From Cyanosarcina radialis HA8281-LM2 (GTDB lineage Bacteria; Cyanobacteriota; Cyanobacteriia; Cyanobacteriales; CCAP-1448), in assembly GCA_019359615.1 (NCBI GenBank), contig JAHHHA010000012.1, positions 62,001 to 126,000 on the forward strand: a DNA stretch of 64,000 bases. Reading direction: 5' to 3'. The notes under the pieces were generated by a model. The model was not told the DNA's origin, made no database searches, and worked only from the letters and a program-made list of their open reading frames with translations. A program made the translations under genes and the position numbers. This document shows, one piece after another, positions 1,391 to 60,207 of the stretch (position 1 is the stretch's first letter; each line of letters starts with the position of its first letter).

Positions 1391-2311
1391 ATGGTCAACG
1401 ATAGCGAATACTTTCGACAAACTGAAGCCACTCGCGTCAGGATACTAAGCGAAGCACTTCCTTACATCCAGCAATTTGCGGGTCGTACTGTAGTCGTAAA
1501 ATACGGCGGTGCGGCGATGAAAGAAAGCAATTTGAAAGATAAAGTCATCCGCGATATCGTCTTTCTCTCTTGTGTGGGGATTAGACCTGTAGTGGTACAC
1601 GGCGGCGGCCCAGAAATTAACAGTTGGCTGGATAAATTAGGAATCGAACCTCAATTTAAGAATGGCTTGCGAGTCACCGATGCCGCCACCATGGATGTAG
1701 TCGAAATGGTGCTGGTCGGTCGAGTGAATAAAGAAATCGTCTCTTTAATCAACCAAGCTGGAGGTGCAGCGGTAGGACTGTGCGGCAAGGATGGCAATTT
1801 GATTAAAGCGCGTCCAGAGGGTAGGGAAGGAATCGGTTTTGTGGGTGAAGTCAATAGCGTTGATATCAAGCTGTTGAAATCTTTAGTCAATAATGGCTAC
1901 ATTCCGGTAGTATCGAGCGTGGCTGCCGACGATACAGGTCAAGCATATAACATCAATGCCGATACAGTTGCCGGAGAACTAGCAGCAGCTTTGGAAGCCG
2001 AAAAATTGATTTTGCTGACCGATACGGTGGGGATATTGAAAGATTACAAAGATCCATCCACCATCATATACAAACTAGATATTCGGCAAGCACGAGAACT
2101 GATGGACAGCGGCGTAGTTGGTGGTGGGATGATTCCTAAAGTTAATTGTTGCGTGCGATCGCTCGCTCAAGGAGTAAAAGCCGCCCATATTATTGACGGT
2201 CGAATTCCTCACGCGCTGCTATTAGAAATCTTCACTAATGACGGCATCGGTTCGATGATCGTAGCTTCAGAATTTAACAAGAATAAAGGAGTTAAAAAAA
2301 TCCAAATGTAG
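1391..2311 (+). CDS. argB: Acetylglutamate kinase
   Basis: It phosphorylates N-acetyl-L-glutamate, the second and controlled step of arginine synthesis. The 306-residue protein has the amino-acid-kinase nucleotide loop VVKYGGAAM (35-43), the substrate loop HGGGPEI (70-76), and the GGGMIPKV stretch near the C-terminus. The N-terminal helix ahead of the kinase core (about 1-28) is the hallmark of arginine-inhibited, hexameric NAGK. In cyanobacteria that form is activated by PII (GlnB). The gene is monocistronic and converges on tsaB; both stop codons lie in the same hairpin. A possible PirA homologue, which would act on this regulation, is at 31612-31770. Confidence 0.96.
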
Positions 2312-2337
2312 AGACGTAGCAGTGCTACGTCTCTACA
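2307..2337. terminator. 15-bp hairpin between argB and tsaB, also a dispersed repeat
   Basis: TGTAGAGACGTAGCA (2307-2321) pairs perfectly with its reverse complement at 2323-2337 across one G. The argB stop (2309-2311) and the tsaB stop (2325-2327, minus strand) both lie inside it. It can act as a bidirectional terminator, although there is no U-tract. The same TAGAGACGT core recurs at 23490 and 60036. Confidence 0.6.
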
Positions 2338-23338: not shown

Positions 23339-24949
23339 TTGGCAGAACGTAAAGATCGACAAGAACAAATTCAACAAATTGTAGTAACTGCTCGGCAAAT
23401 GCGCGAGATTGAAGGGCGGGCGTTCGCTGCTGGAATGCCAGTGGCAGCCTTGATGGAAAAGGTAGCAGGTCTGATAACCCGTCGAATTGTAGAGACGTTT
23501 CGTGAAACGTCTCTAGATCGATCGCTTCGGCAACGGGTGGGTGTATTGGTCGGGCCGGGTCACAATGGTGGCGATGCGCTAGTAGTTGCCCGCGAATTGC
23601 ATTTTCAAGGCTATGAGGTATCGATCTATCAACCGTTTTCTAAGTTGAAAGAATTAACCGAGCAACACGCTCGATATGCTGAAAGTTTGGGTATTACTAG
23701 TAGCGATCGCCTCGATTCTTTGCAAGAGTGCGATTTAATTATAGATGGACTATTTGGATTTGGGTTAGAGCGATCGCTTTCCGAATCAATTGCCACCGCC
23801 ATTAACGAACTCAATCGCTGGCGGCAACCAATTATTAGTATCGATCTCCCTTCCGGTTTGCACACCGATACGGGCGAAGCTTTAGGAACTGCCGTTCGCG
23901 CTACCCACACATTCTGTTTGGGTTTGTGGAAACTGGCTTTTTTGCAAGATCCGGCGTTAGATTACATCGGCAAAGCTGAATTAATCGATTTCGATTTGCC
24001 CCTAGCAGATATCTGGGCAGTATTGGGCAATCCACCCTCGATGAGACGGGTGACTAAAGCCTATGCCCTGGCTCGATTACCTTTACCCCGGCCGCCAGTT
24101 ACCCATAAATATCAACAAGGACACCTACTGCTGATTTGTGGCTCTCGTCGCTATGCTGGCGGGGCGATTTTGACCGGATTGGGAGCGAGGGCTAGCGGAG
24201 TGGGAATGCTGTCAATTGCCGTTCCTGAATCCCTCAAACCATTGTTGGTTGCCCAGTTACCAGAAGCTTTGATTATCGGTTGTCCCGAAACGGAGACAGG
24301 GGCTATTGCTCAGTTACCCGAACTTGAGTTAGACGATTATAGCGCGATCGCTTGCGGTCCGGGATTGACTCGCGATGCCATACCAGTCGTTCGAGAAGTG
24401 CTACAGAGTACGCGCCCCCTGATTCTTGATGCCGATGGCTTGAACGTCTTAGCTGAATTGGGAACCATCCCCACCTTATCCCAACGGCAAGAATTAACGG
24501 TGCTTACGCCCCATGCAGGTGAATTCAAACGCCTGTTTCCCGATTTAGCCGATCCGACTCAAGAACGAATCGGTAGCTTGCAAGCAGCAGCGCGACGCAC
24601 GGGGGCAGTGGTGTTATTGAAAGGCGCGAGAACTGCGATCGCTTATCCTTCTGGTTTGGTGTCAACACCTCGACTTCGCTCGGTGTTGAAGCTGAGCGAA
24701 GTCGAAGCTTCAATTATTCCTGAAAGTACCCCAGCTTTAGCTCGTGGTGGCAGCGGCGACGTTCTCACGGGGCTAATGGGCGGATTAGTTGCCACTGCTA
24801 ACTGCCGGAAGTTACCCATAGATGCAATGGTAGAAAGTGCCGCTTGGTGGCACGCCCAAGCTGGAATTCTAGCAGCTAAAGAAAGAACCGAATTAGGAGT
24901 AGATGCTTTTACCCTAACTCAGTACCTAATTCCAGCTTTAACTAGTTAG
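23339..24949 (+). CDS. nnrD: Bifunctional NAD(P)HX epimerase/dehydratase
   Basis: It repairs hydrated NAD(P)H. The N-terminal YjeF_N epimerase domain (about 15-225) contains GPGHNGGDALVVARELH and DGLFGFGLER. The C-terminal ADP-dependent dehydratase domain (about 250-530) contains LTPHAGEFKRL and ALARGGSGDVLTGLMGG. ATG 23399 would delete the first conserved strand, so TTG 23339 is the likely start. Two palindromic repeats sit in frame, at 23490-23515 (residues ~51-59) and 24670-24705 (~444-456). The second adds about 18 residues between SGLVSTP and the conserved TPALARGGSG. Both are in loops, so function is probably retained. Confidence 0.93.
   Translation: MAERKDRQEQIQQIVVTARQMREIEGRAFAAGMPVAALMEKVAGLITRRIVETFRETSLDRSLRQRVGVLVGPGHNGGDALVVARELHFQGYEVSIYQPFSKLKELTEQHARYAESLGITSSDRLDSLQECDLIIDGLFGFGLERSLSESIATAINELNRWRQPIISIDLPSGLHTDTGEALGTAVRATHTFCLGLWKLAFLQDPALDYIGKAELIDFDLPLADIWAVLGNPPSMRRVTKAYALARLPLPRPPVTHKYQQGHLLLICGSRRYAGGAILTGLGARASGVGMLSIAVPESLKPLLVAQLPEALIIGCPETETGAIAQLPELELDDYSAIACGPGLTRDAIPVVREVLQSTRPLILDADGLNVLAELGTIPTLSQRQELTVLTPHAGEFKRLFPDLADPTQERIGSLQAAARRTGAVVLLKGARTAIAYPSGLVSTPRLRSVLKLSEVEASIIPESTPALARGGSGDVLTGLMGGLVATANCRKLPIDAMVESAAWWHAQAGILAAKERTELGVDAFTLTQYLIPALTS
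23490..23515. repeat. TAGAGACGT palindrome inside nnrD
   Basis: TAGAGACGTTTC and GAAACGTCTCTA form a perfect 12-bp stem with a two-base loop. It shares its core with 2307-2337 and 60036-60064. Confidence 0.75.
24670..24705. repeat. REP-like palindrome inside nnrD
   Basis: TCGACTTCGCTC (24670-24681) is complementary to GAGCGAAGTCGA (24694-24705), a 12-bp stem with a 12-base loop. It is read in frame as PRLRSVLKLSEVEAS. Confidence 0.75.
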
Positions 24950-51060: not shown

Positions 51061-51158
51061 TCGTACAATTGTCAATTCGCAATTGTCAATTCGCAGTTCG
51101 CAATTAAAATAAAATTGTTAATTGCGAACTGGTAATTGCGAATTTCTTTGGCGATCGC

Positions 51159-58977: not shown

Positions 58978-59706
58978 TTATCGAAGTTCTTTCTTAATTC
59001 CTTCCTCTAGCTCCCTGGACAAAAAAGCTTCCTTAGCAGCAGCTTGTTCGGCTGCCTTTTTGGAATTTCCTTGACCAGAACCGCAAAGCTGACCGAGAAG
59101 CCAGACTTCAGCCCGGAAACGCTGAGCGTCGTTATGAGGTTGTTTGGTTTCTTCTACTCGATACTCCGGTAACATTTTATAGCGAGCTTGCGTCCATTCC
59201 TGGAAGGCATCTTTATAGTTAAGCCGGGCCGGATCTTGGCGAATTTCTGCTGCCAGTTGCAGAAAATGAGAATCCAACCACGATCGCACTAAATCTAGGT
59301 TATTGGTGCTGAGGTACAATGCTCCCAAAACTGCCTCAAAAGCATCAGCCAGCCTCGATTGCTGTCCGGCTTTGTCGCCAGCGGCGCTGTTAGAAATCAG
59401 CAAATATTTCTCTAGCCCGTAAGCATCGGCAATTTGGGCTAGGATGCGATCGCTCACCAATACTTTCCGAATTGCCGAAAATTCCCCGACTGAACTTTCT
59501 GGGTAAGTTTCCCATAACAACTCAGAAGCAGCCAGCCGCACTACGGCATCGCCAATAAACTCTAACTGCTCGTTATTGCTCGTATGCGATACAGTGCGGT
59601 GAGTTAGCGCCAATTCTAACAGCGACCATTTTACTGGGGCCGAGGCTGGCAATCCCAGTCTTTCGATTAATTTCTCTAGTTGTTTCTGACGGCGCGGATC
59701 TTTCAT
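58978..59706 (-). CDS. rnc: Ribonuclease III
   Basis: The start is ATG 59706 (MKDPRRQKQLEKL). The 242-residue protein has the RNase III signature NEQLEFIGDAVVRLAASE and RLADAFEAVLGALYL, followed by a C-terminal double-stranded-RNA-binding domain ending in AAEQAAAKEAFL. It processes rRNA and antisense duplexes. It faces rnpB in tandem on the minus strand. Confidence 0.96.
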   Translation of the reverse strand: MKDPRRQKQLEKLIERLGLPASAPVKWSLLELALTHRTVSHTSNNEQLEFIGDAVVRLAASELLWETYPESSVGEFSAIRKVLVSDRILAQIADAYGLEKYLLISNSAAGDKAGQQSRLADAFEAVLGALYLSTNNLDLVRSWLDSHFLQLAAEIRQDPARLNYKDAFQEWTQARYKMLPEYRVEETKQPHNDAQRFRAEVWLLGQLCGSGQGNSKKAAEQAAAKEAFLSRELEEGIKKELR

Positions 59707-59806
59707 GGTTCGTCGTTCGCGGTTCATCGTTACATTGTTCCCATTAACGACGAGCCACGAACAGCAAACACAATTCGGTGGCCATTTGTTCGCAAGATGT
59801 GGTCAA

Positions 59807-60207
59807 AGAGAGAGTCGGACATAAGCCGGGTTCTGTTCCGATCGATGGCGTACCAACAATCGGGGCAGTTATCTATCTGGGATGCTTGTCACCAAACACC
59901 TCTAGCGGACTGTTGGCGGAACTGGTAAAAGACCAACCGTAGTTCCTTCCTTGCTCCCAACCGGGGTTTACCGAGCCAGCACCTCTTGATGCTGCTGGTG
60001 CGCTCTTACCGCACCTTTGCACCCTTACCAATAATGTAGAGACGTAAAATTTTACGTCTCTACATTATTGGCGGTATCTTTCTGTGGCACTATCCTCACG
60101 ATCGCTCGCACTGGGCGTTACCCAGCAAGTTCGGTCTTTCGGGAGTCCGGACTTTCCTCAGACTCACCTGAAAAAGTGAATCTGCAACTGCCTGCGCCTA
60201 CTCTCTC
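59807..60207 (-). ncRNA. rnpB: RNase P RNA (bacterial type A)
   Basis: The minus strand begins AGAGAGTAGGCGCAGGCAGT and has the conserved P4 parts GAGGAAAGTCCGGACTCCC at its 5' side and the ending ACCCGGCTTATGTCCGACTC at its 3' side. Conserved GGTAAGGGTGCAAAGGTGCG and ACAGAAAGATACCGCC lie between. The length of about 400 bases fits. A 44-nt perfect palindrome sits at 60028-60071, in what should be the variable P12 stem. Ends are approximate. Confidence 0.95.
60028..60071. repeat. 44-nt perfect palindrome in rnpB P12 region
   Basis: CCAATAATGTAGAGACGTAA followed by AA, then the exact reverse complement. The core AATGTAGAGACGT is shared with the argB/tsaB hairpin (2307) and the nnrD insertion (23490). 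Confidence 0.8.

Follow-up and report, generated by a model that had tools for sequence, protein, structure and literature searches.

A dispersed palindromic repeat in the P12 tip of the RNase P RNA of the cyanobacterium Cyanosarcina radialis

How does the RNA of ribonuclease P (RNase P), an essential ribozyme, come to carry in one of its arms a perfect palindrome that recurs elsewhere in the same genome? The question is raised by a stretch of 64,000 nucleotides from Cyanosarcina radialis HA8281-LM2 (contig JAHHHA010000012.1, positions 62,001 to 126,000 of the forward strand; hereafter the window), part of a genome of 6.5 Mb (G000, there contig 60), in which the palindrome occupies the P12 hairpin of the RNase P RNA gene rnpB. 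Most likely the tip of P12 is a copy of a dispersed palindrome of about 28-30 nt, resembling the repetitive extragenic palindromes (REPs), which entered a dispensable tip and merely lengthens P12. This is supported by the nine-base arms of the palindrome, which are common to dozens of copies in the genome, and by its position centred on the P12 dyad; furthermore, the remainder of rnpB fits the RF00010 model end to end, and the P12 tips of relatives differ and are often made of repeats. The presence of the repeat in P12, first noticed in an original prediction made from the sequence, is confirmed, and the interpretation then given to it is supported.

The RNA belongs to class A of the RNase P RNAs, with a full-length match to RF00010 at 254.6 bits against a gathering score of 100, and the covariance-model (CM) alignment draws its extra sequence within P12. 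Here, positions 60028-60071 form an inverted repeat of 22+22 nt (pair I3) that is 100% complementary with 0 nt between the arms; the extended P12 folds with -35.6 kcal/mol (z -8.2), which 0 of 200 shuffles matched. The 44-base perfect inverted repeat of the original prediction is thus borne out by the inverted-repeat listing, and the fold that it had proposed as a check places the palindrome in P12. However, only the inner 28 nt, of the form GTAGAGACG-N10-CGTCTCTAC, correspond to the dispersed unit. The outer 8+8 nt, CCAATAAT/ATTATTGG, are by comparison P12's own stem and lie outside the repeat proper, because in the sister genus (G001) the CCAA/TTGG base persists beneath an entirely different tip, and because flank symmetry of this length is absent from the other intact copies; the AATAAT/ATTATT flanks of the rnpB copy are P12 stem. 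The predicted element therefore stands as regards the core that it has in common with other copies, but the family unit is 28 nt long rather than 44.

That the core recurs is readily seen in the window itself, where TAGAGACGT occurs six times, making up three palindromes near 2309, 23490 and 60037, while 0.33 occurrences are expected (100 shuffles, none reaching six). This agrees with the earlier claim of a core common to P12, to a copy within nnrD and to one between two convergent genes, which, following the names given in that prediction, we take to be argB and tsaB. The proposed genome-wide count yielded dozens of copies, namely 24 palindromes with ten-base arms (GTAGAGACGT..ACGTCTCTAC), 35 with nine-base arms (GTAGAGACG..CGTCTCTAC) and 63 with seven-base arms (AGAGACG..CGTCTCT), the reversed controls giving 0, 0 and 1, respectively. 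We read 56 of the 63 together with their flanks (the nnrD copy lies outside these 56). Both outer ends are intact in 35 of the 56 and the inside is a perfect palindrome in 35 of 56, with TAGCACTGCTA, CGAGATCTCG, TAGCATGCTA and TTGCATGCAA as frequent inner sequences. Since a T often precedes the ends (25 of the 35 intact copies) and an A often follows (29 of 35), the unit may be 30 nt, so that a length of about 28-30 nt may describe the family.

The inner arms vary between copies while their pairing is kept. When 13 distinct forms of the 28-nt unit are compared, Watson-Crick pairs fill 56 of 65 inner pair cells, whereas 2000 shuffles averaged 32.6 and never exceeded 47. This is an indication rather than a probability because the 13 forms are related; it suggests that the life of the element requires a hairpin or a symmetrical site. 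One copy (L123, about 579-624, on contig 65 of G000) has some 20 extra nt at its centre, which gives the impression that its tip was invaded by a second small repeat. Past GTAG/CTAC, the flanks pair over 8 bp in rnpB, over 6 bp in one other copy and over at most 3 bp in the other 33 of the 35 intact copies (the 21 of 56 with altered ends were left out), and hairpin tips as a general target of the family were rejected on this ground. As for similarity of flanks between copies, which the original prediction had wished to see examined, the T and A next to the ends are frequent, but the long flank symmetry of the rnpB copy is not shared.

With such a family in the genome, one may still ask whether the P12 hairpin evolved to contain the arm sequence by chance. 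Since the sequence of P12 is hypervariable, though it always forms a hairpin, any sequence is possible there, and the inner arms of the rnpB copy match no other copy, its inner eight bases, AAAATTTT, being unlike those in the other 55 copies read. However, we estimate the chance of finding a given ten-base arm at about 13 places of a 22-bp stem at ~1e-5; the length of 28 and the position of the centre fit the family too, and identical arms are present in the P12 of two other genomes of the order, all of which makes mere resemblance scarcely credible. A P12 that is ordinary and unrelated to the other copies, which would have spoken against the original prediction, was not what we found: P12 is related to them.

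The arm in question is hypervariable across the order. A match to rnpB was obtained in 57 of 60 related genomes and later in 23 of 26 entries searched (four of those 26 being repeats), and the 73 distinct P12 segments read by pattern range from 12 to 132 nt, with a median of 46. A tandem run of at least 7 is present in 20 of the 73, in 19 of these with period 7, as compared to a mean of 0.83 and a maximum of 5 in shuffles. Vioque reportedly described, in 1997, heptamers of the short tandemly repeated repetitive (STRR) type in rnpB of heterocyst-forming cyanobacteria, and in like manner such arrays occupy P12 in many genomes of the order. The original prediction had placed P12 repeats in some heterocystous species; repeats are indeed present, but more widely, the 20 segments being spread across the order (unsorted by heterocyst formation), and to that extent a repeat in P12 is nothing unusual. 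Unlike STRR, the occupant of P12 in the window is one palindrome from a dispersed family and not a tandem heptamer array, the longest tandem run there being 3. An array-like sequence does exist among the window's other inverted repeats, at 51066-51144, where heptamer-like AATTGCG/AATTGTC units fold on themselves.

In the sister genus G001, the P12 tip is a GGGAATA-type heptamer array, which stands on the identical CCAA/TTGG base. The unit of this array has 19 matches in the G001 genome (2 of them P12 itself; control 5), one in G000 and none in two further genomes; unlike in the whole genome, the heptamers showed no excess over chance in 15 G001 loci. G001 also holds 97 full-arm palindromes. 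Because the array unit recurs in its genome, the two sister genera carry two different genome repeats in one and the same P12 tip.

The palindrome itself has counterparts in other P12s. In a collection described as comprising 84,980 genomes, from which that of the window may have been excluded, a scan for GTAGAGACG within the P12 borders returned 2 records, Kastovskya adunca (L077, P12 as in G015) and Coleofasciculus sp. LEGE 07092 (L078, P12 as in G195), which is a lower bound because an exact-arm scan misses decayed copies. Both copies are partly decayed, and their inner arms differ at identical borders (TAGCCTGCTA versus CGCCATGGAA). Parsimony requires 3 changes for the three carriers, and separate events are favoured by their differing genome families (f1 versus f15) and P12 bases (AATAAT versus GATGGT). 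A P12-like pattern was also run over 388 genomes and matched 4, but 3 of these were not rnpB, just a chance CCACAGAAA beside a repeat, and were discarded.

The distribution also bears on the direction of transfer, since one might conversely picture P12, or a similar RNA hairpin, being copied back into the genome and giving rise to the dispersed palindromes. All copies are hairpins with conserved pairing, and small dispersed repeats of cyanobacteria have reportedly been suggested to pass through an RNA intermediate. Yet full-arm copies are present in 24 of the 60 related genomes, whereas among the segments read the family sits in P12 only in G000 and G015. Moreover, the inner-arm form of rnpB is a singleton, and family-rich genomes without a trace in rnpB are what was mostly seen. 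We thus hold P12 as the source of the family to be highly improbable.

Outside rnpB, the copies are scarce within open frames and concentrated near the 3′ ends of genes. Only 17 of 56 lie within an open frame of at least 120 codons, as compared to 78.7% of 2000 random positions, and in a further 24 of 56 such a frame ends within the element or no more than 40 nt ahead of it (4.05% of random positions), where the open frames are unverified as genes and the random positions were drawn from this window alone. The nnrD-like open frame is read in frame through its copy, in a linker of variable length among homologues; their alignment displays no clean 28-nt gain at the copy, and insertion borders are not readable there. 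Another copy lies 20 nt behind the gene for transfer-messenger RNA (tmRNA) and is followed by TTTTTG (L115, about 589-613; contig 50 of G000, 94083-94107); it looks like the intrinsic terminator of that gene, and in most other genomes read, unrelated hairpins with T runs stand behind the tmRNA gene. Rfam searches over 15 + 40 loci gave no other structural RNA carrying a copy, only rnpB itself and the tmRNA with its copy just downstream. One could argue from the 24 copies at frame ends and from the one resembling a terminator that the palindrome acts as a signal in DNA or RNA, be it a protein-binding site or a transcription terminator, that was multiplied by selection and not by mobility. But a T run directly behind the hairpin is missing in most copies, the inner arms differ between subfamilies while the outer arms persist, and a signal has no reason to be present in P12 or nnrD; this explanation is therefore very unlikely.

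Table 1. Features of the window discussed in the text (positions are those of the window).
Feature	Position	Strand	Basis
rnpB, RNase P RNA class A	59807..60204	-	RF00010, 254.6 bits, model positions 1-367 of 367
Dispersed palindrome GTAGAGACGTAAAATTTTACGTCTCTAC, 28 nt, at the dyad centre of P12	60036..60063	.	Perfect inverted repeat; nine-base arms at 35 genome sites, core arms at 63
P12 stem flanking the repeat, 3′ strand (RNA sense)	60028..60035	-	CM alignment; CCAA/TTGG base retained in G001
P12 stem flanking the repeat, 5′ strand (RNA sense)	60064..60071	-	CM alignment; CCAA/TTGG base retained in G001
rnpB, then rnc (RNase III)	58978-60204	- (same strand)	Pfam Ribonuclease_3
Family copy between two convergent genes	2307..2337	.	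Inverted repeat I11; supplies the stop codons of both flanking open frames
Family copy, one outer base changed, in frame within nnrD-like open frame	23489..23516	.	Arm search; homologue alignment

To which class of repeats does the family belong? By description, it resembles the small dispersed repeats (SDR) of Nostoc punctiforme that Elhai reportedly described in 2008, which likewise are very small, hairpin-forming, dispersed cyanobacterial repeats. With the GTAG-REPs it has in common that it is a multicopy palindrome within the range of 20-40 bp (28-29 nt, 63 core-arm copies), that its stem residues alternate in a complementary fashion (the 56 of 65 paired inner cells), and that it is intergenic and near gene 3′ ends (the 24 of 56 copies versus 4.05% of 2000 random window positions). 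GTAG-REPs, described also in cyanobacteria, are in PMC3733652 likewise dispersed short palindromes with alternative complementary stem residues, found at gene 3′ ends and sometimes within genes. REPs, according to the same paper, supply TAG stop codons to neighbouring genes, as the copy at 2307-2337 does for its neighbours. However, GTAG-REPs as portrayed there have an unpaired GTAG at one end and a link to REP-associated tyrosine transposases (RAYTs), whereas GTAG here is paired with CTAC in 35 of 35 intact-end copies. The paired GTAG, together with the failure to find a tyrosine transposase next to the repeat, keeps us from filing the family as GTAG-REP, and we call it REP-like. As in the palindromic elements of Rickettsia, which according to PMC3733652 are tolerated inside genes that remain functional, a palindrome is here tolerated in a gene that still functions, but those elements belong to another phylum, lie in protein genes and are tagged CGTC.

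Several findings weigh against a mobile repeat that entered P12. The palindrome is absent at 5 of 5 of the genome's own Y1_Tnp genes, and a flanking palindrome pair was found at none of the 30 Y1 transposase genes examined of 39 in 8 relatives. In one of these relatives, G032, a single palindrome lies ~180 nt from a Y1 gene (L208), for which chance suffices because G032 holds 139 full-arm copies; another locus (L201) has one arm far off. At L206 (G002), a RAYT-like gene has several AAACCGGGTTTCT palindromes on both sides, a repeat unlike the P12 family, which looks like a cognate REP-RAYT pair, and the flanking-repeat test was therefore able to succeed. There is also no excess of 2-9 nt direct repeats around the 35 of 56 copies whose outer ends are intact, that is, no target duplication as in a miniature inverted-repeat transposable element (MITE). 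With neither transposase partner nor target duplication, the argument for mobility is one from copy number and dispersal alone. Furthermore, the inner form of the rnpB copy, TAAAATTTTA, occurs a single time among the 56 copies read; the approximately unbiased (AU) test does not reject a single clade for the three carriers in P12 (p-AU 0.068, 57 rows); and since no empty site is readable in a close relative, we infer the insertion itself as well as its borders.

The insert might, on the other hand, be functional. A long perfect helix could be a processing or binding site, e.g., for RNase III, with cleavage in P12 leaving an RNase P RNA that works in two parts, much as intervening hairpins are removed from the 23S rRNA of some bacteria. 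RNase III cutting is thinkable because, in the segment read, the P12 of the window pairs without interruption over 19 bp, by far the longest such helix of the 73 (the next has 13, the median is 6), and the RNase III gene rnc is the next gene downstream of rnpB. This neighbourhood is no special argument, however, because the two genes are neighbours in 35 of 53 loci, almost none of which has the palindrome; the sister genus has an unrelated tip sequence, P12 measures only ~12 nt in some genomes, and perfect pairing is expected of any young insert. In the literature searched, no paper brought together a fragmented RNase P RNA, an intervening sequence and RNase III. We consider processing in P12 unlikely; if it were true, a ribozyme would have received a processing site in portable form, with rnc next downstream, and cutting of the helix by RNase III would make this a case of a repeat that splits an RNase P RNA in two.

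Returning to the REP-like repeat as a mere extension of P12, a copy would have entered the tip of a P12 hairpin that was short to begin with, or taken the place of that tip; according to PMC2858038 (citing Vioque 1997), this arm is sometimes dispensable in cyanobacteria. The palindrome's RNA would pair with itself and prolong P12 away from the catalytic core, leaving the fold of the ribozyme alone. The AT-rich inner pairs may have changed later, pair by pair, or they may derive from a subfamily without another surviving copy. We regard the insert as tolerated rather than useful, because the transcript of a perfect palindrome is a hairpin that would only extend P12.

Repeats in cyanobacterial rnpB are already known, and a REP-like palindrome there is a variant on this theme. 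Judged by titles and the beginnings of abstracts, the literature searched describes no dispersed palindrome in RNase P RNA, though it may be in print elsewhere; the occurrences of the arm sequence, among the matches listed, looked on the same basis like chance matches in unrelated papers. What emerges is that an essential ribozyme takes up genome repeats of at least two kinds in the tip of P12, namely heptamer arrays and a dispersed palindrome, in many families of one order. P12 is therefore a natural record of the repeats that are active in a lineage, and at the same time a natural experiment on how far the arm of a ribozyme can be rebuilt.
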